In this document: positions 889 through 40,020 of the stretch, in pieces
How the letters are laid out: every line of letters starts with the position of its first letter
How positions within the stretch are numbered: position 1 is the stretch's first letter
From: Mariniflexile sp. TRM1-10
GTDB taxonomy: Bacteria; Bacteroidota; Bacteroidia; Flavobacteriales; Flavobacteriaceae
Direction: 5' to 3'
Length of the DNA stretch: 64,000 bases
Assembly (NCBI RefSeq): GCF_003425985.1
Contig: NZ_CP022985.1
Span: forward strand, 409,501-473,500
Notes under the pieces: generated by a model
Database searches by the model: none
Seen by the model: the letters and a program-made list of their open reading frames with translations, nothing else
Told to the model about the DNA's origin: nothing
Position numbers and translations under genes: made by a program

Positions 889-902
889 ATGATATAAATC
901 AT
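889..902 (-). promoter_or_regulatory. Crp/Fnr-like box (ppdK promoter)
   Basis: The sequence ATGATATAAATCAT fits ATGAY-N4-RTCAT. On the minus strand TAACTTTA (866-859), one mismatch from the -7 box TAnnTTTG, ends exactly 36.5 bp from the palindrome centre, the same geometry as at the usp, ccoI, ccoS and hemN sites. The predicted start of transcription is near 854, about 35 nt before the ppdK ATG. Confidence 0.6.
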
Positions 903-963
903 ATTATCATTAAGTATTAATATATTTTACCTTAGATAAAAAAAACAGATTTAAATAAGCAAA

Positions 964-993
964 TTTGTAAATTACTTTTAATTTCTTACTTTG
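964..993 (+). promoter_or_regulatory. Putative promoter of the acyl-CoA ligase gene
   Basis: TTTG at 964-967 and TTACTTTG at 986-993 (close to TAnnTTTG) are 18 bp apart and lie 26 bp before the ATG. This matches the Bacteroidota -33/-7 layout but with one deviation in the -7 box. Confidence 0.35.
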
Positions 994-1018
994 CATCATA
1001 CAAATTACCAAGGAACCA

Positions 1019-2788
1019 ATGATGAATGTTACCAGGATTTTCGATTTCCCTTATTATCAGCTTGAAACCTATAATTTAAACAAGGCTTTCACTACAAAAT
1101 ATGACGGTGAATGGAAATCAATTTCTACTCAGGAATTTATTAATCAAGCGAATGCTATTAGTCGAGGTTTGCTTCGCTTAGGCGTAAAACCAAACGATAA
1201 AATTGCTGTTATTTCTTCGACGAATCGAACCGAATGGAATGTTCTGGATATAGGTGTACTACAAACGGGTGCACAAAACGTACCTATTTACCCAACCATT
1301 GCTTCGGAAGACTATGAATATATTCTGAATCATTCAGAATCCATATATTGCTTTGTTTCTGATGTTGAAGTTCTTGAAAAGTTAAACGTCATAAAAAGTA
1401 AAACAAACTTAAAAAACATATATACTTTTGATGCTATTGAAGGTGAAAACCATTGGACCGATGTTTTAAAACTAGGTGAAGACACTAGCAATCAAACAGA
1501 AGTTGAAGCAACTAAGGACAGCGTAAAACCTTCCGATTTGGCAACCCTAATTTACACCTCGGGAACTACAGGAAGACCAAAAGGCGTCATGCTTTCCCAT
1601 AACAACTTAGTTTCAAACGTACTGGACAGCAAAAAACGGGTACCATTTCGTTATGGAAAATCCAAAGCTTTAAGCTTCCTTCCCATCTGCCATGTTTTTG
1701 AACGTATGATTCTGTACTTATATATATACTGCGGTGTCGAAATTTATTTTGCAGAATCTATTGAAAAAATGGGCGACAACCTTAAAGAAGTTGGTCCGAA
1801 TGTTATGACAGCTGTTCCCCGACTTTACGAAAAGGTATATGATAAAATTGTAGCAAAAGGCGCCGATTTAACAGGCATTAAAAAAATGCTGTTCTTTTGG
1901 GCTTTAAATTTGGGCTTAAAATTTGAGCCCTACGGAAAAAATGGCTGGTGGTACGAATTTCAGTTAAAAATAGCTAGAAAACTCATTTTTAGCAAATGGA
2001 AAGCAGGCTTGGGTGGCCATTTAGAAATTATGGTTTCTGGTAGTGCAGCGCTACAAACAAGGTTAACCCGTGTTTTTGCAGCAGCTGATTTACCTATTAT
2101 GGAAGGGTACGGACTTACCGAAACCTCGCCCGTAATTTCAGTAAACGATATGAGAAGCGGTGGTTTTAGAATTGGAACCGTTGGAAAAACAATTGATAAT
2201 GTTGAAGTTAAAATTGCTGAAGATGGCGAAATTCTTGTAAAAGGTCCTAATGTCATGATAGGCTATTTCAAAGACCCCGAAAAAACAGCAGAAGTAATGA
2301 CGGGCGATTACTTTCATACAGGAGATATTGGCGAATTTGATGCTGATGGCTTTTTAAAAATCACAGACCGCAAAAAGGAAATGTTTAAAACCTCTGGTGG
2401 AAAATATGTAGCTCCAGCACTTATTGAAAATCAATTTAAACAATCGCGTTTTATAGAGCAAATCATGGTTATTGGTGATGGCGAAAAAATGCCTGCCGCT
2501 TTAATACAACTTAACTTCGATTTTGTTAAAGAATGGGCAAGAAAACACCATATTGCTTTTAACAATAGTAGCGACCTTATTAGAAACCCAAAACTATTGG
2601 AACGCATACAAAGCGAAATAGATAAAGCCAACACCAACTTTGGTAATTGGGAGCAAATAAAGAAATTTGAAATAACACCAGATGTGTGGTCTATAGATGC
2701 AGGACACTTAACTCCTACCATGAAATTAAAGCGTAAAGTGATTAAAGAAAAATACGCTGACCTTATCGAAAAAATTTATAGACCTTAG
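1019..2788 (+). CDS. Long-chain fatty acid--CoA ligase (AMP-forming)
   Basis: This 589-residue enzyme should activate long-chain fatty acids to acyl-CoA with ATP, feeding the beta-oxidation operon that starts just downstream. The AMP-binding P-loop IYTSGTTGRPKG is at residues 178-189, the GYGLTETSP motif at about 363, the YFHTGD motif at about 433, and the C-terminal lysine region TPTMKLKRKVI near 570. This layout and length match FadD15/ACSL-type ligases common in Bacteroidota. Two consecutive ATGs occur (1019 and 1022); the first is used here. It reads alone, with a candidate promoter at 964-993. Substrate chain length cannot be read from the sequence. Confidence 0.9.
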   Translation: MMNVTRIFDFPYYQLETYNLNKAFTTKYDGEWKSISTQEFINQANAISRGLLRLGVKPNDKIAVISSTNRTEWNVLDIGVLQTGAQNVPIYPTIASEDYEYILNHSESIYCFVSDVEVLEKLNVIKSKTNLKNIYTFDAIEGENHWTDVLKLGEDTSNQTEVEATKDSVKPSDLATLIYTSGTTGRPKGVMLSHNNLVSNVLDSKKRVPFRYGKSKALSFLPICHVFERMILYLYIYCGVEIYFAESIEKMGDNLKEVGPNVMTAVPRLYEKVYDKIVAKGADLTGIKKMLFFWALNLGLKFEPYGKNGWWYEFQLKIARKLIFSKWKAGLGGHLEIMVSGSAALQTRLTRVFAAADLPIMEGYGLTETSPVISVNDMRSGGFRIGTVGKTIDNVEVKIAEDGEILVKGPNVMIGYFKDPEKTAEVMTGDYFHTGDIGEFDADGFLKITDRKKEMFKTSGGKYVAPALIENQFKQSRFIEQIMVIGDGEKMPAALIQLNFDFVKEWARKHHIAFNNSSDLIRNPKLLERIQSEIDKANTNFGNWEQIKKFEITPDVWSIDAGHLTPTMKLKRKVIKEKYADLIEKIYRP

Positions 2789-2815
2789 TTACATATCTTA
2801 AATAAGCTTAAAAAT

Positions 2816-2978
2816 GAACTCGTTTAAAACTTTTCACAATTGGCTAAAAAATAGTCCTTTAGCACTCGTTTTTTTGCCTTTTCTTCCTTCCATAGCCCTG
2901 CTATGCAACTCAAAAAAGCCTTCAACCGAGCACTAAATAACTGATTTTCGCTTCAATCAAAAAATTTTAAACGAGTTC
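2816..2978. repeat. Palindromic intergenic element with 14-bp inverted ends
   Basis: GAACTCGTTTAAAA (2816-2829) is repeated in inverse at 2965-2978. A central hairpin CATAGC-CCT-GCTATG lies at 2891-2905; read on the other strand it has the same AGG loop and the same stem length as the hairpin in the repeat at 58506-58669, with a compensatory change. I place it in the same superfamily as the repeats at 37441 and 48329, although the ends differ. No coding potential is seen. Confidence 0.65.
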
Positions 2979-3005
2979 AATCAAAAAAACGTCATAATTT
3001 TTCTT

Positions 3006-3031: not shown

Positions 3032-3035
3032 TTCA

Positions 3036-3043: not shown

Positions 3044-3062
3044 GACTATCCAACCAAAAAAA

Positions 3063-3509: not shown

Positions 3510-3514
3510 TTAAA

Positions 3515-20470: not shown

Positions 20471-21148
20471 TTATTCAACACGTTTTAAGCCCTCTAGATT
20501 TTCAATTCGTATTTGTTTTCCAACAACAGAAATTAAGGCTTCTTTTTTAAATTGCGATAAAACCCGAATGGCAGACTCGGTTGCTGTACCAACAATGTTT
20601 GCAAAATCTTCGCGGGATAATAGGATACTTAAGGTTTTATCTGGATTCACACCAAAACTATCATGAATATAAACCAAGGTTTCTGCTAAACGCTGCCGTA
20701 CCGATTTTTGAGCCATATTCACAATAATATTATCTGCTTCTTTTAAATCGTGAGCCATTTCCTTTAAAACATCAAATGAAAACTTTGGGTTATTTTGTAA
20801 ATTGTTAATTATTTCTCTTTTAGGAATAAAACAAACTTCCATATTGTTTAAGGCTACTGCTTGTAAATTTGAAACCTCGTCGGTAATAAGGGAACGCTGG
20901 CCTAATAATTGGCCTTTTACAACCATTTTTACTATTTGGTCCTTACCATTTTCGCTTAGCTTAGACAATTTACAAATACCTTCTTTTACACAATAAACAC
21001 CGTTAATAGATTCGCCTTCATCAAAAATAATTTCACCTTTTTTAATAAACTTAGAGGTTTTACAACCTGAAATTCGAACAAGCTCTTCTTTAGTTAAAGA
21101 TTTAAGCGCGTTGAATTGTTTAATAATACATTGTTCACACTTTCCCAT
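20471..21148 (-). CDS. Crp/Fnr-family regulator, Fnr-like with N-terminal cysteines
   Basis: The 225-residue protein has a cyclic-nucleotide-binding-type beta-roll (residues ~25-130), a dimer helix, and a winged helix with LSREDFANIVGTATESAIR as recognition region. It starts MGKCEQC (C4, C7) and has further cysteines at C29 and C106, a set that could bind an iron-sulfur cluster like Fnr, although the spacing differs from E. coli Fnr (C20, C23, C29, C122). The ESxxR recognition helix suits TGA-containing half-sites such as those found upstream of usp, ccoI, ccoS and hemN. It is therefore one of two candidate regulators of those promoters. Confidence 0.88.
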   Translation of the reverse strand: MGKCEQCIIKQFNALKSLTKEELVRISGCKTSKFIKKGEIIFDEGESINGVYCVKEGICKLSKLSENGKDQIVKMVVKGQLLGQRSLITDEVSNLQAVALNNMEVCFIPKREIINNLQNNPKFSFDVLKEMAHDLKEADNIIVNMAQKSVRQRLAETLVYIHDSFGVNPDKTLSILLSREDFANIVGTATESAIRVLSQFKKEALISVVGKQIRIENLEGLKRVE

Positions 21149-21200: not shown

Positions 21201-22040
21201 TTAATGTAATACTAAAAAAGGCACATCTTTATAATAACTAATTTCATTGACGGTTGGATGAAATAAAATGAGCTGGAAATAATTTAAATTCTTCGCCAAC
21301 ATGGTTATTAAATTAATTCCTCTTTCATCTACAAACTGCTGCACGGCATTCTCTATATGTTTATTAGTTAAAAAATGAAAGCTACGGGTGTAATTAGTAA
21401 AATAATCATCTAAATATTCCTTGTTTTTTTGTTGGTCTTCGTTAAGCTCCAAACCATATTTATTTACATGTAACACATTAACCGTTGCATTATTTACTTC
21501 AATAATATCCAGTATGGGCTGCAACGTCTCTGGTCGGTAAAAAATGGAGAAATCGGTTGGAAATGCAATCTCTTTGAGTTCTGTATACTTGGCATTTTCC
21601 GGCACAACCATGGTTGTACATTTTACTTTTGTAATAACATTTCCCGCATTGGTGCCTATGGCTATTTTTTTTAAACCCGAAGCACCTTTTGTTCCCATTA
21701 CAATAAGATTAATTCTATTTTTAACGACTTGTTCCCTAATGGAATCGACGAGATAATTACTATCTGAAATTATAAAAAACCGATGCTTAGGATTTCTTGG
21801 AAGATTGTCGTAAATCCGCTTTAAAGTTTCCTGCAATAACTTTTTTGGGGATTTTGTTAAAGTTTCAGAAGCAACACTTTTATTTTGCACGCCAGCACTT
21901 CCACTAGTTACTAATGTACCAGCTGTATTAACGTGTAATAAATAAAAGTTACAGGACGATTTACTGAAAAATTTGAGTGCATAATCTATAGCATTCCATG
22001 CATTTTCAGAAAAATCTGTTGGTATTAAAATATTCTTCAT
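21201..22040 (-). CDS. Tandem universal stress protein
   Basis: A 279-residue protein with two UspA domains. The first is MKNILIPTDFSENAWNAIDYA with the nucleotide-binding tail LIVMGTKGASGLKKIAIGTN; the second, from about residue 145, is degenerate. The ATG at 22040 is used, since the extra 12 residues from 22076 are unlike the family. A TACTTTTG -7 box at 22069-22062 and a Crp/Fnr-like palindrome at 22092-22105 precede it with the same spacing as the cbb3 oxidase promoters. That suggests induction on oxygen limitation, as for anaerobic Usp proteins of other bacteria. Confidence 0.87.
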   Translation of the reverse strand: MKNILIPTDFSENAWNAIDYALKFFSKSSCNFYLLHVNTAGTLVTSGSAGVQNKSVASETLTKSPKKLLQETLKRIYDNLPRNPKHRFFIISDSNYLVDSIREQVVKNRINLIVMGTKGASGLKKIAIGTNAGNVITKVKCTTMVVPENAKYTELKEIAFPTDFSIFYRPETLQPILDIIEVNNATVNVLHVNKYGLELNEDQQKNKEYLDDYFTNYTRSFHFLTNKHIENAVQQFVDERGINLITMLAKNLNYFQLILFHPTVNEISYYKDVPFLVLH

Positions 22041-22091
22041 GCCTATTTGTCTTCTAAGAAACAAAAGTAAAGGCATGGGCTTTAACTAAAT

Positions 22092-22105
22092 ATGACCAAA
22101 ATCAT
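22092..22105 (-). promoter_or_regulatory. Crp/Fnr-like box (usp promoter)
   Basis: ATGACCAAAATCAT fits ATGAY-N4-RTCAT. On the minus strand the perfect -7 box TACTTTTG (22069-22062) ends 36.5 bp from its centre. Confidence 0.7.
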
Positions 22106-22140: not shown

Positions 22141-22161
22141 GATAAAATTTAAACAGTCTCT
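22141..22161 (+). repeat. Solo right end of the palindromic repeat family
   Basis: The 21 bases match 37581-37601 with one change (GATAAAATTTAAACAG then TCTCT against TTTCT). The stop codon of the REC-Crp gene (22163-22161) begins on its last base. Confidence 0.65.
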
Positions 22162-23216
22162 TAGCTTATTTGCTGTAGTTTATTAATATCTAAAATTTTA
22201 ATATTTCTACCTTCAATTTCAATAATACCCAAATCCTTAAAGCCTGAAAGTGTTCTTATTAGGCTCTCTATGGCTACACCTGCAACACTAGCTAAATCGT
22301 TTCTGGAAATTCTAATAGAATCATTGGGTTTATGGTTAAGCTTTTCGGCAAATTTCAGTATGGTGGTAGCCGTTCTTCTCTTAACCGAACTGTATGCCAT
22401 TTGTAACAATTGTTCTTTTACAACCGTTAAATCGTCCGTTAACAACTGTATGAGTTCCAAAGTGACATTATGGTTGGTATTGAGCACATTTTTCAATTCA
22501 TTTTTAGAAAGTGCCACCAATTCCGAATCTTTTATAGCTGTTGCCGTTTCTTGATAGGGCGTGTTCTGTGTAAAGGAGGTATAACCAAACAAATCATCTT
22601 CTTTATATAGAGCCGTTGTTAAATCCTTACCTTGTTCGTCCAGTTTGTGGCATTTAACCAATCCTTTTGATATTAAAAATATATTATTGGAATTTTGCCC
22701 TTCTTCGTAAATAATATCACCTTTAGCATAGCTTATTTCATTGCCGTTATCATCAAAAAAGTTTTTGAGGTCATTAAGTGTTCTAAGTTCATCCTCTTGA
22801 TTAGAAATAGAATTTTTTTGAGCTTCGAAACTTCTGTCTTTTAAAATAGCGGCCTTAGCTAACCTACTTTCAATGGCACTTATTAATTCTTCTTCTTCAA
22901 AAGGTTTGGTGATGTAATCGTCTGCGCCTAAATCCATACCTTTTCTAACATCTTTACGCTCTGTTTTTGCAGAGAGAAATATAAAAGGAATGTGTTTGGT
23001 TTTTTCATTTTCAGCCAAGGCCTCCAAAACACCATAACCATCAAGTTCGGGCATCATAATGTCACACACAATAATATCTGGAAAATCCTTTCTTGCCATG
23101 TCCAAACCAATTTTACCGTTTGGAGCTGTGATAACATTATAATCGGACAGTTCTAATAATTCCGCTGTATTTTCCCTTAAAATAACATCGTCTTCTATCA
23201 GTAATATTTTCTTCAT
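22161..23216 (-). CDS. Response regulator fused to a Crp/Fnr-type DNA-binding module (REC-Crp)
   Basis: The 351 residues join a receiver domain (1-120; phospho-acceptor D52 in VCDIMMPELDG, K104 in ITKPFEEEE) to a cyclic-nucleotide-type sensor domain (~150-265) and a Crp winged helix (~285-345; ISRNDLASVAGVAIESLIR). This fusion lets a histidine kinase drive a Crp-like factor directly. Its start codon overlaps the stop of the kinase gene by 4 bp (ATGA), so the two are translationally coupled partners. The recognition helix is similar to that of the Fnr-like protein at 20471, so both may read the same sites. Confidence 0.9.
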   Translation of the reverse strand: MKKILLIEDDVILRENTAELLELSDYNVITAPNGKIGLDMARKDFPDIIVCDIMMPELDGYGVLEALAENEKTKHIPFIFLSAKTERKDVRKGMDLGADDYITKPFEEEELISAIESRLAKAAILKDRSFEAQKNSISNQEDELRTLNDLKNFFDDNGNEISYAKGDIIYEEGQNSNNIFLISKGLVKCHKLDEQGKDLTTALYKEDDLFGYTSFTQNTPYQETATAIKDSELVALSKNELKNVLNTNHNVTLELIQLLTDDLTVVKEQLLQMAYSSVKRRTATTILKFAEKLNHKPNDSIRISRNDLASVAGVAIESLIRTLSGFKDLGIIEIEGRNIKILDINKLQQIS

Positions 23217-24457
23217 TGTTTCACTTTATTTGGTAATATAAATGTAAAGTCGCTTCCCATATTTTCTTCACTAGTAAAGCTTATTGTGCCTCCTAAATTT
23301 TCTAAATGGCTTTTTACAATATTCAGCCCAATGCCAGTTCCTTGGGTAAGCAGTGCATTTTCAGCCCTAAAATAACGATTAAATATGTTTTTTTGATCGT
23401 TAAGGGGAATTCCAATACCATTATCCTTAATCTTAAACGTGGTATTTTTATCATTCTGCTTTATTTGAATATCTACCAAGGTGTTTTCTGATGAGTATTT
23501 AATGGCATTATGTACCAAGTTGGACAATGCCAACTCTACAATTTTTTCATCTTGAAACATGGAGTAATCATCAATATTTTCAGGATATTTTATTTCTTGG
23601 CCTTCTTTTAAAAGCATATTGGCGTTATATACCACTTCATTAACAATTTTGCTTATTTTAAACGTGCTGAATTTATAATTAATTTTACCGGTATCTAATT
23701 TTTCAATGGATAAGAAATCATTTAAAATATTATTAAGATAATGCACTTTGTCTGAAATGGTTTTTATGTGCTTATCCCTTCTCTCTTGTTGTTCGGTCAA
23801 CTTATATTTACTCAACAACATAGCCGAAGTTAAAATACCACTTAAAGGCGTTTTAAACTCATGGGAGACTAACGATAAAAATTTTGTTTTTAATTCGTTG
23901 AGTTCCTTTTCCTTTTTAAGAGCGTTTTTTATTTTATTTTGGGCCTCAATCCGTTTTTTAATTTCGGCATCTCGTTCTTTGTTTACAATTTTTAATTCTT
24001 CTACAGTATCACTTAAAGTCTTTGTACGCTCACTAACCTTTTTTTCCAATTGATCGTTTAGTTCCAGCAATTCAAGCTCTTGTTGCTTGCGTATAGAAAT
24101 ATCTATAACCAATGCCATTACAAACGATTCCCCATTAATTTCCAAAGGATTTAAACCTGCCTCTACAGGAAATGAGTTGCCGTTTTTGTGAGCCCCAAAC
24201 AAATCACGCCCACGTCCCATTTGCCTACTTTCCTTATGATCCATAAAACCTTCTACATGGGCAGCATGGCCAGCATGGTATTTTTGTGGAATTAACACAT
24301 TAAGATGTTGGCCTATAAGTTCATCTTTATTGTAACCAAACATGCGCTCTGCTGAAGCATTTGTTTCAACAATATGTTGCTGATTGTTTACTACAATAAC
24401 ACCTTCTGACACAGCTTCAAAAAGCACATTAAAAACATCTTTGTCGTTCTGATACAT
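23213..24457 (-). CDS. PAS-domain sensor histidine kinase
   Basis: A 414-residue soluble kinase: PAS domain (residues ~8-122), coiled-coil (~125-185), HisKA with phospho-acceptor H199 in FLSLVSHEFKTPL, and an ATPase domain with IKDNGIGIP and GTGIGLNIVK. No membrane segment is visible, so it senses a cytoplasmic signal. In the PAS domain, PQKYHAGHAAHVEGF places H64 where FixL has its haem-ligand histidine, and MGRGRDLFG has an arginine at the FixL oxygen-site position; both are also seen in haem-free PAS domains, so haem binding is only a hypothesis. It is co-transcribed with the REC-Crp regulator. Confidence 0.88.
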   Translation of the reverse strand: MYQNDKDVFNVLFEAVSEGVIVVNNQQHIVETNASAERMFGYNKDELIGQHLNVLIPQKYHAGHAAHVEGFMDHKESRQMGRGRDLFGAHKNGNSFPVEAGLNPLEINGESFVMALVIDISIRKQQELELLELNDQLEKKVSERTKTLSDTVEELKIVNKERDAEIKKRIEAQNKIKNALKKEKELNELKTKFLSLVSHEFKTPLSGILTSAMLLSKYKLTEQQERRDKHIKTISDKVHYLNNILNDFLSIEKLDTGKINYKFSTFKISKIVNEVVYNANMLLKEGQEIKYPENIDDYSMFQDEKIVELALSNLVHNAIKYSSENTLVDIQIKQNDKNTTFKIKDNGIGIPLNDQKNIFNRYFRAENALLTQGTGIGLNIVKSHLENLGGTISFTSEENMGSDFTFILPNKVKQ

Positions 24458-26543: not shown

Positions 26544-26557
26544 ATGACTAATATCAT
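26544..26557 (+). promoter_or_regulatory. Crp/Fnr-like box (ccoI promoter)
   Basis: ATGACTAATATCAT fits ATGAY-N4-RTCAT, and its surroundings match the ccoS site (ACATGAC at the left, TCATATTTTAA at the right). GAAATTTG at 26580-26587, one mismatch from TAnnTTTG, ends 36.5 bp from the centre. The predicted transcription start is near 26592. Confidence 0.65.
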
Positions 26558-26588
26558 ATTTTAAAGATACATCAATTTTGAAATTTGC

Positions 26589-26758
26589 CCTAGTGTTAAG
26601 TTAAGTGTAATGTGTCGGTTAAGTCGCTGCTATTTTTTTCTTTTACAAGGCTAAAAAAAACATAGCATAGCCGTAGCTACGGTACGTTTTTTTAACGCAG
26701 TAAAAGGGAAAAAGAACAAGACTTGGGTCGGCTAAATTATGCTTAACTTAACACTAGG
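26589..26758. repeat. 170-bp palindromic element in the ccoI leader
   Basis: CCTAGTGTTAAGTTAAG at 26589-26605 is repeated exactly in inverse at 26742-26758. The middle holds CCGTAGCTACGG, itself a palindrome, flanked by A- and T-rich tracts. It starts just before the predicted ccoI transcription start, so almost the whole element should be transcribed as 5' leader ending 21 bp before the start codon. Confidence 0.8.
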
Positions 26759-26779: not shown

Positions 26780-29197
26780 ATGGACAAACACACCTGTTTT
26801 CACTGCGGTTTAGACGCATCAACACAAGACATTGTTTATGATGAAAAAACATTTTGTTGTGAAGGTTGCAAAACCGTCTATCAAATTTTTTCTGAAAACG
26901 ATTTAACTTGTTACTACGATTTACAAACCGCTCCTGGAGCAACACCCAAAGATATTGAGGGCAAATACAACTTTTTAGAGAACATCAAAATAATTGAACA
27001 ATTACTGGAATTTAATGATGGTTCCACCCAAATTATATCACTTTACATTCCGCACATCCATTGCAGTTCCTGTATTTGGATTCTTGAAAACCTCAACAAA
27101 TTAAACCCTTCCATAAGTGCTTCTGTTGTAAACTTTGGCAAAAAAACCGTTCGGGTGACTTTTAATGCCGAAACCCTGTCGCTAAAAAACCTGGTTACGT
27201 TATTAAGTACTATTGGTTACGAGCCTTTCATTAGTTTAGATGATTACAGTGTTGGCAAAAAACATATTGATAGGTCTTTAATTTATAAACTTGGTGTTGC
27301 CGGTTTTGCTTTTGGAAACGTGATGTTTTTATCGTTTCCAGAGTATTTTGAAGTGGGCGAATTTTGGCTCGAGCAATTTAAACCCCTCTTTAGATGGCTT
27401 ATGTTTGCTTTTTCTGTACCAGTTGTATTTTATTCGTCGCAAGATTATTTTATTTCGGCTTACAAAGGACTTCGGTCTAAAATTTTAAATATTGATGTTC
27501 CTATAGCCCTAGGTGTTTCAGTTTTATTTATTAGAAGTACTATTGAAATTATTTTCGATTTAGGGTCTGGGTTTTTCGATAGTTTAACCGGACTTATTTT
27601 CTTTTTATTACTTGGGAAATTCTTTCAGCAAAAAACCTATGCCTTTTTATCGTTTGAGCGCGATTATAAATCCTATTTTCCTATTGGCATTACAAAAATT
27701 ACTCCGGAAGGAAACGAAGAATCCATACAAGTTTATGATATTGAAAAGGGCGACCGCCTTTTAATTAGAAATGAAGAACTCATTCCTGTTGATTGTATTT
27801 TAATAAAAGGAAACGCACGAATAGATTATAGTTTTGTAACGGGCGAATCCAAAACGGTTAGTAAACAATCGGGCGACAAACTTTTTGCAGGCGGCAAACA
27901 ACTCAACGGCACTATTGAAGTTGATGTTTTAAAATCGGTTGAACAAAGCTATTTAACACAACTTTGGAGTAACGATGTGTTTAAAAAAGACAAATCATTG
28001 GCATTTACAAATATTACCAACCAAATAAGTAAGCGGTTTACCATAAGCATTTTAATAATCGCGGTATTAGCCACTTCATTTTGGTTAATAGTGGACTCCA
28101 GCAAGGCCATAAATGTTTTTACATCGGTGCTCATCATTGCCTGTCCTTGCGCCTTGGCTTTGGCTGCTCCCTTTACTTTTGGTAATGTACTTCGCATTTT
28201 GGGCAAGAAAAAATTCTACTTAAAAAATGCCAGCGTTATTGAACAATTGGCTAAAATAGACACCATCATTTTTGATAAAACAGGAACCATTACCGCCAAT
28301 AAAGAAACGTCCATCGCCTATGAAGGCATCTCGCTTTCTAAAGATGAAGAAATGTTACTAAAAAGCACGTTGAGAGGTTCTAATCATCCTTTAAGCAGAT
28401 CGTTGTACCATCTTTTAAACGAAAACAACATCCTCACTTTAGATAGCTATGAAGAACATTTAGGTAAAGGCATTGAAGCGCAATATAAACAAGATTCCAT
28501 AAAGATTGGTTCGGCGCCTTTTGTAGGCCACACTTCTGAAACGGCTACATTAAACACAGCCGTTCATATAAGCAGTAACAACACGTATAAAGGAAAATTC
28601 ACGTTTTATAATGCGTATCGAAAAGGATTGTCCCAACTATTCAACAAACTAAAACAAGATTATGATTTGGTGATTCTCTCAGGCGACAACGAAGGGGAAA
28701 AAGACAATCTTACCAAGTTGCTTCCAACAAAAACCAAGTTGTTGTTCAACCAAAAACCAGAAGACAAACTGGAATATATTAAATACCATCAAAGTGAAGG
28801 CGCCAAGGTATTGATGATTGGTGATGGTTTAAATGATGCCGGTGCCTTAGCGCAGAGTGATGTTGGTATTGCCCTTTCAGAAAATGTGAATGTATTCTCT
28901 CCCGCTTGCGATGCTATTTTGGACGCATCAAAATTCAACGAATTATATCACTATATAAAAGTGTCAAAATCGGCTATCAACATCATTAAATGGAGTTTTT
29001 TATTGTCGTTCCTATACAACTGCATCGGACTTTACTTTGCGGTTACAGGCCAATTAGAACCCGTTGTAGCCGCTATTTTAATGCCTTTAAGTTCTATTAG
29101 CATTGTTGCTTTTACAACCATTTGCACAAACAATATTCCCCACCTAGCCTACCCAAAGGGGAGGAAACCATTGTCCAAAAATGTTGAGGATGAGTAA
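26780..29197 (+). CDS. ccoI: Cu-transporting P-type ATPase for cbb3 oxidase assembly
   Basis: The 805-residue ATPase (CcoI/FixI) exports copper needed for the CuB centre of cbb3 oxidase. The N-terminus has a cysteine-rich domain (CFHCG, CCEGC) typical of this subgroup, then a heavy-metal domain with HCSSC, the membrane CPC motif in IACPCALALAAPF, the phosphorylation site IIFDKTGTIT and the hinge MIGDGLNDAGAL. It is the first gene of the cco cluster. The last ~20 residues (from NNIPHLAYPKGRK) are encoded by sequence resembling the hairpin repeat at 5911-5940, so the tail seems to have been replaced by repeat insertion. Confidence 0.92.
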   Translation: MDKHTCFHCGLDASTQDIVYDEKTFCCEGCKTVYQIFSENDLTCYYDLQTAPGATPKDIEGKYNFLENIKIIEQLLEFNDGSTQIISLYIPHIHCSSCIWILENLNKLNPSISASVVNFGKKTVRVTFNAETLSLKNLVTLLSTIGYEPFISLDDYSVGKKHIDRSLIYKLGVAGFAFGNVMFLSFPEYFEVGEFWLEQFKPLFRWLMFAFSVPVVFYSSQDYFISAYKGLRSKILNIDVPIALGVSVLFIRSTIEIIFDLGSGFFDSLTGLIFFLLLGKFFQQKTYAFLSFERDYKSYFPIGITKITPEGNEESIQVYDIEKGDRLLIRNEELIPVDCILIKGNARIDYSFVTGESKTVSKQSGDKLFAGGKQLNGTIEVDVLKSVEQSYLTQLWSNDVFKKDKSLAFTNITNQISKRFTISILIIAVLATSFWLIVDSSKAINVFTSVLIIACPCALALAAPFTFGNVLRILGKKKFYLKNASVIEQLAKIDTIIFDKTGTITANKETSIAYEGISLSKDEEMLLKSTLRGSNHPLSRSLYHLLNENNILTLDSYEEHLGKGIEAQYKQDSIKIGSAPFVGHTSETATLNTAVHISSNNTYKGKFTFYNAYRKGLSQLFNKLKQDYDLVILSGDNEGEKDNLTKLLPTKTKLLFNQKPEDKLEYIKYHQSEGAKVLMIGDGLNDAGALAQSDVGIALSENVNVFSPACDAILDASKFNELYHYIKVSKSAINIIKWSFLLSFLYNCIGLYFAVTGQLEPVVAAILMPLSSISIVAFTTICTNNIPHLAYPKGRKPLSKNVEDE

Positions 29198-29244
29198 GCA
29201 CATAACAGTTCCCTCTCCTTCGGAGAGGGTTAGGGAGAGGAAAA
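29147..29244. repeat. Second copy of the two-part hairpin repeat
   Basis: 29147-29176 resembles 5911-5940 and is read as the ccoI C-terminus. 29211-29244 is identical over 34 bases to 5986-6019 upstream of fadA, including the hairpin CCCTCTCC-TTC-GGAGAGGG. The two parts occur in the same order and orientation at both loci. Confidence 0.8.
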
Positions 29245-29252
29245 AATCAAAC

Positions 29253-29266
29253 ATGACAAATGTCAT
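29253..29266 (+). promoter_or_regulatory. Crp/Fnr-like box (ccoS-NO-Q-P promoter)
   Basis: ATGACAAATGTCAT has fully complementary 6-bp arms. A perfect -7 box TAATTTTG at 29289-29296 ends 36.5 bp from its centre, predicting transcription from about 29301, 16 nt before ccoS. Confidence 0.75.
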
Positions 29267-29316
29267 ATTTTAAGAAATCCTATGAAAGTAATTTTGAACC
29301 ATAACTTCAAGTAGGT

Positions 29317-29502
29317 ATGAGTGTTATTTATGTCTTATTAACGATTAGCATTGTTGTGGCAGTTGGCTTTTTCATCGCTTTTATAGTAGCGATAAGAAAC
29401 GGACAGTTCGACGATAGTTACACCCCATCCGTTCGCATGCTATTTGAAGATGAACTGATTAAAGAAAAACCTAAAAAATCAATACTAACCAAAAAAGATT
29501 AA
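29317..29502 (+). CDS. ccoS: cbb3 oxidase maturation protein CcoS
   Basis: A 61-residue single-pass membrane protein: a hydrophobic stretch at residues 3-26 followed by [19 protein letters not shown], the conserved CcoS tail. CcoS is needed to load haem and copper into CcoN. It is 11 bp upstream of ccoNO and is the first gene after a Crp/Fnr-like promoter site. Confidence 0.9.
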
Positions 29503-29513: not shown

Positions 29514-31697
29514 ATGGACATCCAGCAATTTCACTACGATAATAAAATCGTTAAAAACTTTATCTATGCCACCATGCTTTGGGGGGTTGTAGGTATGTTG
29601 GTAGGCTTACTTCTTGCATTTCTGTTTTTATTCCCAAACTTAACCGATGGTATTTCGTGGCTAAGTTTTGGCCGTTTACGACCATTACATACCAATGCCG
29701 TTATTTTCGCCTTCGTGGGTAACGCTATTTTTGCTGGAGTTTACTATTCTTCGCAACGTTTACTTAAAGCCAGAATGTTTAGTGATGTATTAAGCAAAAT
29801 CAATTTCTGGGGATGGCAACTTATCATTGTAGGAGCTGCCATAACGTTACCATTAGGCTACACATCATCTAAAGAATATGCCGAATTGGAATGGCCCTTT
29901 GATATTGCTATCGCTTTTGTATGGGTCGTTTTTGGATGGAATTTAATAGGTACCATCTTAAAAAGAAGACAGCGCCATTTATATGTTGCTCTTTGGTTTT
30001 ACATAGCCACGTTTGTAACCGTGGCCGTATTACATATTTTTAACAGTTTGGAACTTCCCGTAAGTGCTTTAAAAAGCTACTCCGTTTACGCCGGGGTACA
30101 AGATGCCTTGGTACAATGGTGGTACGGGCATAATGCCGTAGCATTCTTTTTAACCACACCGTTTTTAGGATTGATGTACTATTTCGTACCAAAAGCAGCT
30201 AACAGACCTATCTATTCTTACAGGCTTTCCATAGTTCACTTTTGGTCGTTAATCTTCATCTATATTTGGGCAGGACCTCACCATTTATTATATACCGCTT
30301 TACCAGAATGGGCACAAAATTTAGGTGTGGCGTTTTCGGTGATGTTGTTAATGCCATCTTGGGGTGGTATGATAAATGGGTTGTTAACACTACGTGGTGC
30401 TTGGGATAAAGTACGTGTTGATCCTGTTTTAAAATTCATGGTCGTTGCTATCACAGGTTATGGTATGGCAACGTTTGAAGGCCCTACATTATCCCTTAAA
30501 AACGTGAATGCTATTGCACATTTTACCGATTGGATTATTGCCCACGTACACGTTGGTGCCCTAGCGTGGAATGGATTCTTAACATTTGGTATGATTTATT
30601 ATTTAATACCAAGACTTTTTAAAACTAAATTATACTCTATTGGATTAGCAAATCTACATTTCTGGATTGGTACTTTAGGTATTATTATGTACGCACTGCC
30701 CATGTACGTAGCTGGATTTACCCAAGCCAGTATGTGGAAACAATTTAACCCAGATGGTACTTTAACTTACGGAAACTTTTTAGAAACCGTTACTGAAATC
30801 ATGCCTATGTACTGGATGCGTGCTATTGGTGGTACTCTATTCATTACCGGAATGCTCATTATGATCTATAATGTGATTGTAACCATAAAACAAGGTAGTA
30901 AGGCTGAAGACGAATTAGCCGAAGCCGCTGCACTAGAACGTGTTACCAAAAAACGTACTTCTGGTGAAGGTTGGCACTCTTGGTTAGAGCGCAGACCTAT
31001 ACAATTAACCATTTTAGCGACTATAGCCATATTAATTGGCGGTATTATACAAATTGTACCGACCATCATGGTAAAATCCAACATACCGACCATTGCCAGC
31101 GTCAAACCATACACACCATTAGAGCTGGAAGGACGCGACATTTACATCCGCGAAGGCTGTGTGGGGTGTCATTCCCAAATGATTCGTCCGTTTAGAAGCG
31201 AGGTAGAACGCTATGGCGAATACTCAAAAGCTGGTGAATATGTTTACGACCATCCCTTTTTATGGGGCAGTAAACGTACTGGGCCCGATTTACATAGAAT
31301 TGGTGGGAAATATTCCGATAACTGGCACTTTAACCATATGTACGACCCACAAAGTACTTCATCTGGTTCCATCATGCCTCGCTACCCTTGGTTGATTAAA
31401 AATGAATTGGATAAATCGCAAACTGAAGCCAAAATGAAAGCAATGGTGTCGTTAGGTGTCCCGTATTCCGAGGAAGATATAGCCAATGCTCAAGACAATA
31501 TGCTGAAACAAGGAACTAAAATTGAGAAAAACCTCTATAGCGATCCTGATTTTGTGAATGCTTATGAAGCAGATAAAACATATGCTAAAGATAATGACGA
31601 GTCTTTTATTGAAATGAAAAACAGGGAAATCGTAGCCGTTATAGCCTATTTACAACGCTTAGGAACAGACATCAAAGTAGAAACAGCTATAAAGTAA
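29514..31697 (+). CDS. ccoNO: Fused cbb3 cytochrome c oxidase subunits I and II
   Basis: The 727-residue protein joins the catalytic haem-copper subunit CcoN (residues ~1-470, about 12 membrane spans; haem and CuB histidines in [26 protein letters not shown] and IAHVHVGAL) to the mono-haem cytochrome c subunit CcoO (haem site EGCVGCHSQ near 545, axial methionine in SSGSIMPRY). The fusion is the normal form in Bacteroidota. The oxidase has high oxygen affinity and pumps protons, so it serves respiration at low oxygen. Confidence 0.95.
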
Positions 31698-31718
31698 TTG
31701 GTAGTATATGGCAATAAC

Positions 31719-31795
31719 CCATCAACCATCAACCATCAACCATCAACCATCAACCATCAACCATTAACCATCAACCAAAAACCAAAAACCATTAA
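31719..31795 (+). repeat. Heptanucleotide tandem repeat, (CCATCAA)n, 11 units
   Basis: Six perfect CCATCAA units are followed by five variant units (CCATTAA, CCAAAAA). It fills the gap between ccoNO and ccoQ. Copy number would change the distance between the two genes but no reading frame. Confidence 0.92.
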
Positions 31796-31800
31796 ATACC

Positions 31801-31986
31801 ATGTTAAAATTCGTAAAAAATCATATGGACAGTATTTCAGGAATAGAAATATACCCTATTATATCATTACTAATATTTTTCACTTTTTTCGTATTGCTTT
31901 TTTGGTGGGTATATACAGCAAAAAAAGAGTACCTAAAAACAGTTAGCAACTTGCCATTAGACAACCAAAACGACGATTTATTATGA
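31801..31986 (+). CDS. ccoQ: cbb3 oxidase subunit CcoQ
   Basis: The 61-residue protein has one membrane span (PIISLLIFFTFFVLLFWWVY, residues ~19-38) and a short polar tail with KKEYL, as in CcoQ/FixQ, which stabilises the oxidase. The ATG at 31801 follows the heptamer repeat. A longer overlapping frame from 31698 that runs through the repeat is not a gene. Its stop codon overlaps the ccoP start by 4 bp. Confidence 0.85.
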   Translation: MLKFVKNHMDSISGIEIYPIISLLIFFTFFVLLFWWVYTAKKEYLKTVSNLPLDNQNDDLL

Positions 31987-32915
31987 GAAACTTAATACCA
32001 TCTTGGATACGCGTTCCTATTGTATTCTTCATCATCTTCGGATTAACAGAATATGTTATCGATTCAGGTGAAAAACCTGCATTTATAAAATACCCTGCCG
32101 TATTGCTATTCCTTTTTCTGGTACTGCTTATCCTTATTGCTATTGAAGCCATAGTTAGTGCTTTAGAAAATGTGATGCTCTATAAGCTAGATGAAGAAGC
32201 AAAAGCACGCTTTTTGGCCGAAAAAGAAAGCGTTTATAAATTTACGTGGCTAAAAAACACTTATAAAAAGCTTTTAGGTTCTAAACCTATTGAAGAAGAA
32301 AGCGAAATTATCTTAGACCACAATTACGATGGTATAAAAGAGCTAGACAATGCTTTACCGCCATGGTGGCTGTATGGCTTTTACATATCTATTATATTTG
32401 GAGCCGTATATTTGTTAAGATACCATGTATTTAATGGGGCCAACCAGTACGATGAACTAGAAACCGAATTAGCTGATGCACAAACTGCCATTGAAGCCTA
32501 CAAAAAAACGGCTAAAGATTTGGTAGATGCCAATACCGTAACTTTACTTACCGATACTGCCGATTTAAGTGCAGGCAAAACCATTTTCGAAACCAATTGT
32601 ATTGCTTGTCACATGGCAGATGGCGGAGGTGGTATTGGTCCAAACCTAACCGACCAACATTGGATTTTAGGTGGTGACATTAAAAGTGTATTTCATACCA
32701 TTTCTGAAGGCGGACGTTCCGGCAAAGGGATGATTGCTTGGAAAGCACAACTAAAACCACTTGAAATGGCACAAGTTGCCAGCTATGTTTTAGCATTTCA
32801 AGGCACTACGCCTGCCAATCCAAAAGAACCAGAAGGCGACCTTTGGGGAGAAAACACTTTAGAAACCCCTGCTGAAACGGCAACAGATTCAATACAAGCA
32901 GTGACTAATCAATAA
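31983..32915 (+). CDS. ccoP: cbb3 oxidase diheme-type subunit III homologue, single haem
   Basis: The 310-residue subunit has membrane spans at ~10-60 and ~122-142, then one c-type haem domain (NCIACHMADGGGG at ~208, axial methionine in GKGMIAWK). Proteobacterial CcoP carries two haems; only one CxxCH is visible here, as usual for Bacteroidota. It passes electrons from cytochrome c toward CcoO. It is translationally coupled to ccoQ. Confidence 0.92.
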   Translation: MRNLIPSWIRVPIVFFIIFGLTEYVIDSGEKPAFIKYPAVLLFLFLVLLILIAIEAIVSALENVMLYKLDEEAKARFLAEKESVYKFTWLKNTYKKLLGSKPIEEESEIILDHNYDGIKELDNALPPWWLYGFYISIIFGAVYLLRYHVFNGANQYDELETELADAQTAIEAYKKTAKDLVDANTVTLLTDTADLSAGKTIFETNCIACHMADGGGGIGPNLTDQHWILGGDIKSVFHTISEGGRSGKGMIAWKAQLKPLEMAQVASYVLAFQGTTPANPKEPEGDLWGENTLETPAETATDSIQAVTNQ

Positions 32916-32920
32916 TAACC

Positions 32921-32950
32921 AAACCTGTCAATTTAAACGTTGGCAGGTTT
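32921..32950 (+). terminator. Hairpin between ccoP and ccoG (attenuator or partial terminator)
   Basis: AAACCTGTCAA (32921-32931) pairs with TTGGCAGGTTT (32940-32950), 11 bp with one G-T pair and an 8-nt loop. There is no long T run. It may lower transcription into ccoG. Confidence 0.55.
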
Positions 32951-32963
32951 AAATTACCAAATC

Positions 32964-34388
32964 TTGGAAACACCAGAAAACGAAGTATTTAGAGATTCCA
33001 TTAGTACCGTAACCAATGAGGGTAAGCGTGCTTGGGTATTTCCTAAAAAACCTAGTGGAAAGTTCTATACATACAGAAAATGGGTCAGTTATATCCTGCT
33101 GGTATTTTTACTAACGGCTCCATTTTTAAAAATAAATGGCAACCAATTTTTAATGTTCAATGTTTTAGAACGCCGTTTTAATATTTTCGGGTTTCCATTT
33201 TGGCCACAAGATTTCCACCTGTTTGTAATTTCAATGATCATTGGTGTGGTATTTATTACGCTATTTACGGTTGTCTTTGGACGCATTTTTTGCGGTTGGA
33301 TTTGTCCGCAAACCATTTTTATGGAAATGGTGTTCAGACGTATAGAATATTGGATTGAAGGCGACAGAGGCAAACAAATACGTTTATCCAAACAATCTTG
33401 GAATGCCGAAAAAATAAGAAAAAAAGGGTTGAAACTGATTATTTTCCTATTCATTTCCTTCCTAATCGCAAATGTGTTTTTAGCGTATTTAATAGGCAGT
33501 GATAAACTAATAAGTTATATAACCGATAATCCTCTTAACCATATAAGCACCCTCATATCCTTACTCATTTTTACGGCTGTATTTTATTTTGTCTTTGCGT
33601 GGTTTAGAGAACAGGTTTGCGTTATTGCCTGTCCTTATGGTAGGTTACAAGGCGTATTGTTAGATAACAAATCGATTGTGGTGGCTTACGACCACAAACG
33701 TGGAGAAGGTGAAAAAGGCAGAAAGAAAATCAGGAAAAATGAAGATAGACATGCTTTGGGATATGGAGATTGTATAGACTGTTTTCAATGTGTGCATGTA
33801 TGTCCAACAGGTATTGATATTAGAAACGGCACCCAATTAGAATGTGTGAATTGTACCGCTTGTATTGACGAATGTGATAGCATCATGGACAGTGTTAACT
33901 TACCTAAAGGTTTGATAAGATACGCCAGTGAAGATAATATCGAGAAAAAAACACCCTTTAAACTCACAGCAAGAATGAAGGGTTATATGGCCGTCCTCAC
34001 TATTTTAGTTGGCTTGCTAATAGGGATGCTATTTTTAAGGAATGATGTAGAAGCCACTGTTTTAAGATTACCAGGACAGCTATTTGAACATAAAGAAAAC
34101 AACATTATCAGTAATGTGTTTACTTATAAGCTGATAAATAAAACGACGAATGATATTGAAGACGTGAGCTTTAAATTATTGTCCCATAAAGGCACCTTAA
34201 AGTTGGTGGCAACTAGCAATAGTTTTACGGTTCCTAAGTCTGGTATTGCCAAAGGAACCTTGTTTGTTGAAATTAATAATGCGGTTTTAACTGGCGATAG
34301 GAACAAAATAAAAATTGGCGTTTATCAAGGCGACACATTAATTGAAACCACAACGGCTAATTTTTTAGGACCTAGGAGTTATAGGTAG
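32964..34388 (+). CDS. ccoG: cbb3 oxidase accessory ferredoxin-type protein CcoG
   Basis: The membrane protein has cysteine clusters CGWICPQ, VCVIACPYG, CIDCFQCVHVCPTG and CVNCTACIDEC for two 4Fe-4S clusters, and a C-terminal immunoglobulin-like domain. CcoG is thought to reduce copper during CuB assembly. No ATG is available. A TTG at 32964 gives the native-looking METPENEVFRDSI; the TTG at 32940 lies inside the intercistronic hairpin and is less likely. Length is 474 residues. Confidence 0.9.
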   Translation: METPENEVFRDSISTVTNEGKRAWVFPKKPSGKFYTYRKWVSYILLVFLLTAPFLKINGNQFLMFNVLERRFNIFGFPFWPQDFHLFVISMIIGVVFITLFTVVFGRIFCGWICPQTIFMEMVFRRIEYWIEGDRGKQIRLSKQSWNAEKIRKKGLKLIIFLFISFLIANVFLAYLIGSDKLISYITDNPLNHISTLISLLIFTAVFYFVFAWFREQVCVIACPYGRLQGVLLDNKSIVVAYDHKRGEGEKGRKKIRKNEDRHALGYGDCIDCFQCVHVCPTGIDIRNGTQLECVNCTACIDECDSIMDSVNLPKGLIRYASEDNIEKKTPFKLTARMKGYMAVLTILVGLLIGMLFLRNDVEATVLRLPGQLFEHKENNIISNVFTYKLINKTTNDIEDVSFKLLSHKGTLKLVATSNSFTVPKSGIAKGTLFVEINNAVLTGDRNKIKIGVYQGDTLIETTTANFLGPRSYR

Positions 34389-34508
34389 TTTTGGGTATTG
34401 GGCACTGGGCACTGGGTCTTGGAAAAAGGGCATGCTAAAAAAGTAATAATGAGATCCTGAAACAAGTTCAGGATGACAAGACTAATAGATTTCCTCCTTC
34501 GAGGAAAT
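34389..34508. repeat. Intergenic repeats: low-complexity tract and two hairpins
   Basis: A GGGCACT/GGGTATT-rich tract is followed by ATCCTGAA-loop-TTCAGGAT (34454-34474) and ATTTCCTC-CTTC-GAGGAAAT (34489-34508). The ATG at 34507 sits in the second hairpin, so the fixH start further down is preferred. A similar CCTCCTTCGAGG hairpin lies before ddl at 42885-42899. Confidence 0.7.
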
Positions 34509-34527
34509 GAAAAAAAAATATAACAAG

Positions 34528-34974
34528 ATGAAAATAAATTGGGGAACAGGTATTGTATTGGCTTTTATAGGCTTTATAAGCTTTATTATGTATTTTATTA
34601 TCACTTTGAATGTGAATGATAAGTACAACCACGACTTGGTTACCGAAGATTATTATGCCGAGGAACTAAGCTACCAAAACGATATTGATAAATTAAACAA
34701 TGCCAAAAATTTGGATAAAAATATAAGTTACGAACGCACTGATAAAGGTTTACTTATTGTGTTTCCTAAAAATATAGATTTTAGTAAAATTTCAGGAAAT
34801 GTGTTCCTATATAGACCATCTAACAAACAATTAGACTTTGATACTACTATATCACTGTCTAAACCTTATTTGCTCATACCTGACAAACGTTTGGTAGGTG
34901 GTCGTTGGAACATTAAAGTGGATTGGCAATACAACAACGAATTGTATTTGTACAAAGAAATAATAAATTATTAA
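34528..34974 (+). CDS. ccoH: FixH/CcoH family protein
   Basis: From ATG 34528 (MKINWGTGIVLAF) the protein has 148 residues: one N-terminal membrane span (residues ~6-27) and a periplasmic domain with DLVTEDYYAEELSYQNDIDKL, the FixH signature. It takes part in cbb3 oxidase assembly or stability. The ATG at 34507 lies in a hairpin repeat and adds seven residues unlike the family. It is 2 bp upstream of the next gene. Confidence 0.87.
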   Translation: MKINWGTGIVLAFIGFISFIMYFIITLNVNDKYNHDLVTEDYYAEELSYQNDIDKLNNAKNLDKNISYERTDKGLLIVFPKNIDFSKISGNVFLYRPSNKQLDFDTTISLSKPYLLIPDKRLVGGRWNIKVDWQYNNELYLYKEIINY

Positions 34975-34976
34975 TT

Positions 34977-35960: not shown

Positions 35961-35966
35961 TGTAGG

Positions 35967-38433: not shown

Positions 38434-38594
38434 CTGTTTATATTTATTTTTTAATCTAAATAATTCCCTGAAGGCTCTACCACGAAAATAGTCTATTTTC
38501 AAGAAATTTTTATTTGGCAGACGGAACGCCCTTCATAATCATCTCGTGCGTGTAAATGCCATTCTCATGGGTGCTTTATTATGCTTATTTTAAA

Positions 38595-39968
38595 TTATAC
38601 AGTCATGGAAAACAACTGCGTATCGGGTTGTTTTCGTTGTAAAAGCAAATCGAAAGCCATACAAATGTTTCTAACAAATGGTTGGCCTTTTTTAGTAACC
38701 TCAATAGTATTTGAACCGATATTGAGTAATCCGTCGTTTTCCATTTCCTTTAATTTAATAAGGACTTCGGGAAGTTCTTTAAAATAAAGTGAATGACCAG
38801 ACCATGTTGTTTTAAACTGGCACATCAAGTTAAGTATATGTTTTCGAATAACCAAATCCTCTTCATTTAAAATATGCCCTCTGTAAACCGGCAAAATATT
38901 TTCGTTTAACAAATGGTAATAAGCTTCAATGCCTTTTTCATTTTGGGAAAACCCATACCAACTATCACTTATGGCTGATACGCCCAAACCAATCATAGCT
39001 TGGGTTTTTGATGGAGTATAACCCATAAAATTTCTATGTAAATCGCCATTTTGCATCGATTTATAAAGTGAATCGGTTTGCAATGCAAAATGATCCATAC
39101 CAATTTCGTGATAGCCGACTTCGGCAAGCAATTGCTTACCTAACTCATATTGCTGTCTTTTTAAATCTGCCGATGGTAAATCGGAATCATTAAACCCACG
39201 TTGTCCATTTCCTTTTATCCAAGGCACATGGGCATAGCTATAAAAAGCCAACCTATCGGGCAACAAAGCCTTGGTTTTTAAAATAGTTTCCCTTACATGC
39301 TCTAACGTTTGAAATGGCAAACCGAAAATAATATCATGGCCAACAGATGTGTATCCTACGTCTCTTGCCATTTCCGTAGCACGTTTTACGTTTTCAAAAG
39401 GTTGCATTCTATGAATGGCTTTTTGCACCGTTTCGTTATAATCTTGCACACCATAACTTACCCGTCTAAAACCTACACTGTAAAGCGCTTCTAAATGTGC
39501 TCTTGTCGTATTGTTTGGGTGTCCTTCAAAACTAAACTCATGTCCATCGGCAACTAGAGCGGTTTTTAAAATGCCTTTTATAAGTAGGGTTAAATTTTCT
39601 GGACTAAAAAAAGTGGGGGTACCGCCACCAAGGTGCAACTCTTTAATTATTGGTTTTTCATCAAACAATTCTAAATATAGTTGCCATTCTTTTAAAACCG
39701 CATCTATATAAGGTCTTTCTACACCGTGTTGCTTGGTTATACGCTTATTGCATCCACAAAACGTGCATAAGCTTTCGCAGTAAGGCAAATGAATATACAA
39801 ACTTATGCCTTCTTTGGCATTACTTTCCTTAAAAGATTTTATCAACGAAGTTTTCCAATTTTTTAAAGAAAATGTATTCTGATTCCAATATGGAACTGTT
39901 GGATAGCTTGTATAACGAGGCCCCGCAATATTATATTTATTTACTAATGAACTTAACATACCTGACAT
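38595..39968 (-). CDS. hemN: Oxygen-independent coproporphyrinogen III oxidase
   Basis: A 457-residue radical SAM enzyme that decarboxylates coproporphyrinogen III to protoporphyrinogen IX without oxygen. The cluster cysteines are C64, C68 and C71 in YCESLCTFCGC, with C73 of the HemN pattern. GGGTPTFF and the C-terminal HemN domain follow. The -7 box TATTTTTG (39984-39977) predicts transcription from ~39972, so the leader is nearly absent for this ATG; the in-frame ATG at 39959 (MLSSLVNKYN) would fit better and also matches relatives. Control by the box at 40007 fits need for haem at low oxygen. Confidence 0.93.
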   Translation of the reverse strand: MSGMLSSLVNKYNIAGPRYTSYPTVPYWNQNTFSLKNWKTSLIKSFKESNAKEGISLYIHLPYCESLCTFCGCNKRITKQHGVERPYIDAVLKEWQLYLELFDEKPIIKELHLGGGTPTFFSPENLTLLIKGILKTALVADGHEFSFEGHPNNTTRAHLEALYSVGFRRVSYGVQDYNETVQKAIHRMQPFENVKRATEMARDVGYTSVGHDIIFGLPFQTLEHVRETILKTKALLPDRLAFYSYAHVPWIKGNGQRGFNDSDLPSADLKRQQYELGKQLLAEVGYHEIGMDHFALQTDSLYKSMQNGDLHRNFMGYTPSKTQAMIGLGVSAISDSWYGFSQNEKGIEAYYHLLNENILPVYRGHILNEEDLVIRKHILNLMCQFKTTWSGHSLYFKELPEVLIKLKEMENDGLLNIGSNTIEVTKKGQPFVRNICMAFDLLLQRKQPDTQLFSMTV

Positions 39969-40006
39969 TTATGTATCAAAAATATACAGATGCGTTTGTT
40001 AAATAT

Positions 40007-40020
40007 ATGATATATATCAT
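40007..40020 (-). promoter_or_regulatory. Crp/Fnr-like box (hemN promoter)
   Basis: ATGATATATATCAT is a perfect 14-bp palindrome. On the minus strand TATTTTTG (39984-39977), a perfect -7 box, ends 36.5 bp from the centre. On the plus side no -7 box lies at this spacing, so it serves hemN rather than the superoxide dismutase gene. Confidence 0.72.

Follow-up and report, generated by a model that had tools for sequence, protein, structure and literature searches.

Five palindromes of the form ATGAY-N4-RTCAT in a 64,000-nucleotide stretch of the genome of Mariniflexile sp. TRM1-10 (contig NZ_CP022985.1, positions 409,501 to 473,500; hereafter the window) lie at one and the same distance from a −7 promoter box and point towards the genes ppdK, usp, ccoI, ccoS and hemN. 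The arrangement is a real family-wide regulon code of the Crp/Fnr class II kind, and the operator variant and the pairing of regulators are new as far as the literature was searched. We consider it likely that the sites serve as class II activator operators in a low-oxygen regulon of the Flavobacteriaceae, on which the inputs of an FNR-like protein and of a FixL-type kinase with a receiver-Crp fusion protein converge. Operator and exact spacing together provide a readable code for what is probably a low-oxygen regulon in a major bacterial family, which comprises marine, freshwater and soil bacteria and in which the genes behind the sites are probably switched on at low oxygen. No described Fnr or low-oxygen regulon of the Flavobacteriaceae was found in the literature searched, a body of work in which subscription journals are mostly outside coverage.

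Operators and promoter spacing in one genome

The window belongs to a single-contig genome of 4.86 Mb and has 35% GC. It contains only five perfect matches to ATGAY-N4-RTCAT, exactly where a preliminary description of this DNA had placed them, while 100 dinucleotide shuffles gave a mean of 0.30 matches and a maximum of 2, with none reaching five. The operators, their boxes and the predicted transcription starts are as follows:

889..902, minus strand: ppdK operator ATGATTTATATCAT; box 859-866, TAACTTTA; predicted start 854
22092..22105, minus strand: usp operator, between the receiver-Crp gene and usp; box 22062-22069, TACTTTTG; predicted start 22057
26544..26557, plus strand: ccoI operator; box 26580-26587, GAAATTTG; predicted start 26592
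29253..29266, plus strand: operator of ccoS and the downstream cco genes; box 29289-29296, TAATTTTG; predicted start 29301
40007..40020, minus strand: hemN operator; box 39977-39984, TATTTTTG; predicted start 39972

The identical spacing claimed in the preliminary description was found in all five cases: 36.5 bp separate the centre of the palindrome from the final base of the 8-bp box, which corresponds to 22 bases between palindrome and box (hereafter gap 22). Its count of three boxes that match TAnnTTTG perfectly and two that have one mismatch was likewise confirmed. When the search was loosened to NTGAY-N4-RTCAN with a box agreeing in at least five of six letters, gap 22 returned the same five places in the window and no others, and the 89 other gaps gave a mean of 0.29 and a maximum of 3. 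Crp and Fnr centred at −41.5 are class II activators. The TAnnTTTG box occupies positions −12 to −5 in the part of the Flavobacterium psychrophilum promoter map available to us (PMC9723704), and because the box ends at −5 in these mapped promoters, the centre of the sites would fall at −41.5, which backs the class II position of about −41.5 proposed earlier.

Across the genome, there are 45 ATGAY-N4-RTCAT palindromes, compared with 23 for the pattern read backwards, and 20 of them have a box with at least five of six letters at gap 22 (89 other gaps: mean 1.04, maximum 5). Random positions and spacings genome-wide had been named as the outcome that would speak against the motif; by the same box criterion, 15 of the 40 sites outside the window have the spacing, whereas the 89 other gaps averaged 0.81 such sites and never exceeded 5. 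Only 2 of the 20 box-bearing sites, but 17 of the 25 box-less ones, lie inside reading frames of at least 150 codons. In base counts of the 20 aligned sites, judged by eye, no −33 TTG element stood out between site and box.

The genes downstream of the 20 box-bearing sites include ppdK, usp, the ccoI-like ATPase gene, ccoS-ccoNO, hemN, and genes for CBS-domain proteins, pyruvate:ferredoxin oxidoreductase (PFOR), a thioredoxin-like protein, cytochrome c, a TonB_C protein, a WG-repeat protein and a PAS-domain protein that gave no kinase domain match, as well as pta, mlaE, a gene whose product weakly matches YceI, the gene for the large subunit of ribonucleotide reductase with usp genes behind it, and some genes without a known family. 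For one of the 20, at 3823160, no reading frame was found within 350 bp, and the next gene in that direction starts at 3823822. A second cluster of sites spans 3801518-3842466, where eight of nine sites have the box, the exception being 3820218, which is inside a reading frame. The surrounding island (3.80-3.85 Mb) encodes universal stress proteins (four tested by Pfam), Hsp20, BON and PfkB proteins, a phosphoribosyltransferase, a P-type ATPase, the large subunit of ribonucleotide reductase, and a second pair of PAS kinase and receiver-Crp protein.

Single palindromes with gap-22 boxes on both sides were also seen (G000, 3814376; G017, C2:256994-257067; G037, C12:17860-17933); these are possible divergent promoters served by one operator.

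Sites and target genes in related bacteria

A comparison of the spacing in related Flavobacteriaceae had been proposed in the preliminary description. Among 60 genera of the family, including that of the window, 214 of the 313 places found at gaps of 8-36 are at gap 22, and the arrangement is present in 50 of the 60 genomes. The 59 other genera contribute 302 places, of which 206 are at gap 22 compared with 3.4 per other gap; the backwards control gave 43 and 1, respectively. Conceivably, the sites could be repressor sites or unrelated palindromes, with the spacing a by-product of AT-rich promoters, and both the 35% GC of the window and the 25 of 45 genome sites without the spacing would suit such an explanation. 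We nevertheless regard it as very improbable, given that a single spacing stands out 60-fold over 59 genera and that nine other outer-base combinations together give 72 gap-22 places, compared with 214 for A..T alone.

The broader definition, in which palindromes with any outer base count as the same motif, was weaker and was rejected (backwards control for the 72 places, 4). Several genera also have GTGAC-N4-GTCAC palindromes at gap 22 ahead of a TAnnTTTG box, which suggests another Crp/Fnr protein with the same geometry.

A restriction of the geometry to the Flavobacteriaceae was rejected as well. In a sample of the phylum, 17 of 18 additional Flavobacteriaceae genomes had the gap-22 arrangement, as did both genomes from a different family of the same order and 11 of 28 genomes from the other families of the class, where 16 of 53 places (gaps 8-36) are at gap 22. 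Outside the class, only 5 of 149 genomes contain it, and 9 of the 11 places there come from one family (f21). In one genus (g61; genomes G080, G084, G228 and G232), a similar site recurs at gap 23 rather than 22, apparently in one orthologous promoter as judged by eye.

Targets in the relatives were tallied for 82 distinct sites from 33 genomes, out of the 206 gap-22 places; the target was taken as the longest reading frame starting no more than 420 bp behind the box and was named by its best blastp match among the frames of the window's genome. They were cytochrome c (13), hemN (10), ccoNO (8), a thioredoxin-like protein (7), usp (5), ccoI (2) and pta (2), and the remaining sites had three single targets, 28 other targets and, in four cases, no frame. 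Eleven of the 28 others were tested and comprised nadA, feoB, nirK, a pyridine-nucleotide oxidoreductase, methylmalonyl-CoA epimerase, pyruvate formate-lyase (PFL), a hibernation-factor domain, cytochrome c, one ModE domain just under the cut-off and two proteins without a family.

These targets agree with the low-oxygen physiology put forward earlier, with cbb3 oxidase, hemN, cytochrome c, usp, PFOR and pta in this genome and PFL and nirK in the relatives. Low-oxygen control of the genes would also be consistent with F. psychrophilum, which, according to the part of the study available to us, raises both cbb3 oxidase and heme synthesis when oxygen becomes limiting (PMC9723704). The regulators could instead sense something other than oxygen, such as a carbon source or NO. 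The accessible part of a meta-regulon study places Flavobacteriales CRP/FNR homologs, members of the same superfamily, near the Bacteroides MalR-like group and predicts carbon sensing for them (PMC8510549), and ppdK, methylmalonyl-CoA epimerase and nadA are targets in central metabolism. The search in that study, as far as its accessible text describes it, used a Bacteroides MalR matrix, and here cbb3 oxidase, hemN, PFL and PFOR are found behind the sites. Without assuming orthology of the proteins either way, the targets and the cysteine pattern seem to speak against MalR-like carbon sensing for the FNR-like protein and point to oxygen instead, and we judge a signal other than oxygen to be quite unlikely.

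Two candidate regulators

The preliminary description named no binder for the operators. The window encodes two candidate regulators, which may share the motif, next to the usp operator, together with the targets:

1..817, minus strand: ppdK, pyruvate phosphate dikinase, 5' part, the gene being cut by the window end (TIGR01828, 3.7e-108 on a 272-aa fragment)
20471..21148, minus strand: FNR-like regulator, 225 aa, the next gene behind usp (cNMP_binding and HTH_Crp_2; Cys4, Cys7, Cys53 and Cys106)
21204..22040, minus strand: usp, universal stress protein, start re-set to an internal ATG
22161..23216, minus strand: receiver-Crp fusion regulator, 351 aa (Response_reg, cNMP_binding and HTH_Crp_2)
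23213..24457, minus strand: PAS histidine kinase (PAS akin to FixL/DosP heme domains; His64 aligned with the FixL His)
26780..29197, plus strand: heavy-metal P-type ATPase, taken as ccoI as it adjoins the cco genes (TIGR01525, 342 bits, cut-off 346)
29317..29502, plus strand: ccoS (FixS)
29514..34974, plus strand: ccoNO fusion, ccoP, ccoG (FixG) and ccoH (FixH)
38595..39968, minus strand: hemN, oxygen-independent coproporphyrinogen III oxidase (TIGR00538, above cut-off)

The start of usp was moved because the predicted transcription start at 22057 is downstream of the first ATG at 22076, and translation probably begins at the internal ATG (MKNILIPTDF). Since the usp-fnr gene pair sits behind the operator, the FNR-like gene may itself be under the same control as usp.

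The genome has six HTH_Crp_2 matches, of which one scores under the cut-off and another has an internal stop; two adjoin sites of the window. In the FNR-like protein, Cys4, Cys7, Cys53 and Cys106 are kept in all 31 aligned rows (30 distinct), whereas Cys29 (21/31) and Cys59 (23/31) are variable. Cys4, Cys7 and Cys106 align with two N-terminal cysteines and the β-roll cysteine of Aliivibrio fischeri FNR. The FNR-like and receiver-Crp proteins have the recognition-helix residues E-x-x-I-R in common; E, I and R are present in 31, 31 and 31 of 31 rows in the former and in 31, 30 and 31 of 31 rows (30 distinct) in the latter.

Loci of the receiver-Crp gene were compared for the best 80 of 586 relatives, which may have no more than the receiver domain in common; this choice of the best 80 leans towards close relatives of the query. 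The kinase is present in 78 and usp in 77 of the 80 loci, and directly behind the receiver-Crp gene, a relaxed TGAY-N4-RTCA site with a box at gap 22 is found in 71; the next-best gap was met in four loci, and mononucleotide shuffles gave a mean of 0.025. The outer bases of the 71 sites are A..T in 26, C..T in 38 and T..T in 7 cases, and the promoter-distal half-site is therefore looser. A chance origin of the sites and their spacing was thus ruled out by these loci, by the window shuffles and by the spacing counts in the genome and in 59 genera. The PAS domain of the kinase best matches the heme domains of FixL and DosP among solved structures (E-values of 1e-15 to 1e-14), and 73 of 78 kinases have a His aligned with that of FixL. 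We take the FixL His to be the proximal heme ligand, and we assume the roles of the His and of a FixL Arg in these kinases by analogy.

The presence of sites is linked to that of the regulators, whose classes were assigned at E < 1e-40, with two members of the FNR class (G020 and G043) aligning only from residue 34-35 on. Gap-22 sites were found in 14 of 14 genomes with both regulators (mean of 6.7 sites), in 23 of 25 with FNR only (3.2), in 10 of 11 with receiver-Crp only (2.9), and in 3 of 10 with neither (0.9). Site numbers in genomes with any regulator and with none differ with p = 0.0002 in a rank test that ignores kinship and leaves out the window's genome.

This distribution bears on the possibility that the FNR-like protein is the sole user of the operator, with the receiver-Crp protein binding elsewhere and its neighbouring site serving FNR, for which usp would be a target. 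Such an arrangement would fit with the location of the window's FNR gene in the same cluster and with the fact that the hemN and ccoNO sites fetched are all from outside the receiver-Crp-only group, although the comparison covered only 12 sites from that group. It is harder to reconcile with the 11 genomes that have receiver-Crp and no FNR ortholog at the above threshold, 10 of which keep gap-22 sites (32 sites), with the retention of the site directly behind the receiver-Crp gene in 71 of 80 loci, and with the identical recognition-helix residues of the two proteins. The same cytochrome c gene, moreover, is behind sites in receiver-Crp-only genomes (4/12 sites) and in the group with FNR only or neither (5/44). 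Sole use by FNR is, in our estimate, unlikely.

Under the preferred reading, in which both regulators act on the operator, a Crp/Fnr-type dimer would bind ATGAY-N4-RTCAT centred at −41.5 and recruit the sigma-A polymerase at the TAnnTTTG −7 box. One oxygen input would come from the FNR-like protein (20471-21148), whose cysteine set appears to be of iron-sulfur type and may hold an Fe-S cluster. The other would come from the FixL-type PAS kinase (23213-24457), which presumably carries heme and would phosphorylate the receiver-Crp protein (22161-23216), a putative FixJ and FixK in one. Both inputs would activate from the same −41.5 operator at low oxygen. A fuller scheme is offered more tentatively, as a possibility somewhat short of even: a heme kinase of the FixL type signals to a fused FixJ/FixK-like receiver-Crp activator, which shares operator and promoter geometry with a cysteine-variant FNR, so that two chemically different oxygen sensors are read at the same −41.5 sites, those of a DosR/lxa-like survival island included, and the regulon can outlast the evolutionary loss of either regulator. 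The family would then be a natural test case for the exchange of control over one regulon between two oxygen-sensing regulators.

Several observations weigh against a regulon of this design. Of the 45 genome palindromes, 25 are without a box at gap 22, and eight of these are outside reading frames of at least 150 codons. Of 79 testable loci, no more than 27 have a perfect palindrome behind the receiver-Crp gene (26 with box), such that the figure of 71 of 80 needs the relaxed core, and the 80 loci are near relatives, several of them from one genus. Sites are present without either regulator in G048 (six; a genome 82% complete and 6% contaminated), G051 (two) and G023 (one), and absent from G020 and G026, which have an FNR relative, and from G022, which has receiver-Crp. 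Only 57 of the 78 kinases keep the FixL Arg. In the FNR-like protein, N stands in place of the third N-terminal cysteine of A. fischeri FNR (QLC), and the structure model of the FNR-like protein is uncertain at the N-terminus (blocks of 47-59 pLDDT in residues 1-30), too weak for cysteine geometry. Finally, the second receiver-Crp protein and three further HTH_Crp_2 matches of the genome remain candidate binders.

Comparison with known systems and neighbouring features

E. coli FNR acts as a class II activator at −41.5 on targets such as hemN and pfl, and the FNR half-site is TTGAT. The FNR-like protein described here resembles E. coli and A. fischeri FNR in its Crp/Fnr architecture and in the aligned N-terminal and β-roll cysteines. 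It differs in the ATGAY half-site (outer A for T), in the recognition helix (E-x-x-I-R rather than E-x-x-S-R), in the absence of the third N-terminal cysteine and the presence of the extra invariant Cys53, and in the Bacteroidota −7 box. The palindrome at a fixed distance to TAnnTTTG, here and in the relatives, has the form of a class II Crp/Fnr promoter of Bacteroidota type and indicates that the class II geometry also applies to the Bacteroidota polymerase and its −7 box.

The FixL-FixJ-FixK system controls genes of the cbb3 oxidase and hemN type, and FixJ is a receiver joined to a LuxR-type HTH that acts through a separate FixK. The likeness lies in the PAS domain of the kinase and in the cbb3 oxidase and hemN genes behind the sites. 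In contrast to FixJ, the output part of the receiver-Crp protein consists of cNMP_binding and HTH_Crp_2 domains, and receiver and Crp-type DNA-binding domain are combined in one protein.

We liken the island of the second cluster to the mycobacterial DosR regulon, judging by what we take to be the composition of that regulon. The lxa locus of Burkholderia cenocepacia, as given in the part of the source available to us, encodes six universal stress proteins, a heat shock protein, BON, phosphofructokinase and cytochrome c (PMC6127331), and the island is similar to it in having usp, Hsp20, BON and PfkB. Unlike the lxa and DosR systems, the regulator here is a receiver-Crp protein and the promoters are of Bacteroidota type.

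Three further features lie near the operators and their target genes. An IS110-type transposase gene (window 35967-37274) is located between the cco genes and the hemN/usp pair. An element of 170 bp with 23-nt inverted ends (91%) at window 26589-26758 abuts the −7 box of ccoI and would make up the beginning of the ccoI leader; the genome contains one other near-full copy at 2099634-2099798 (90%) and two shorter, weaker pieces. Immediately before the ccoS operator, at window 29200-29250, there is a GC-rich inverted repeat, CCCTCTCCTTCGGAGAGGG, which is perhaps a terminator or a repeat behind ccoI.

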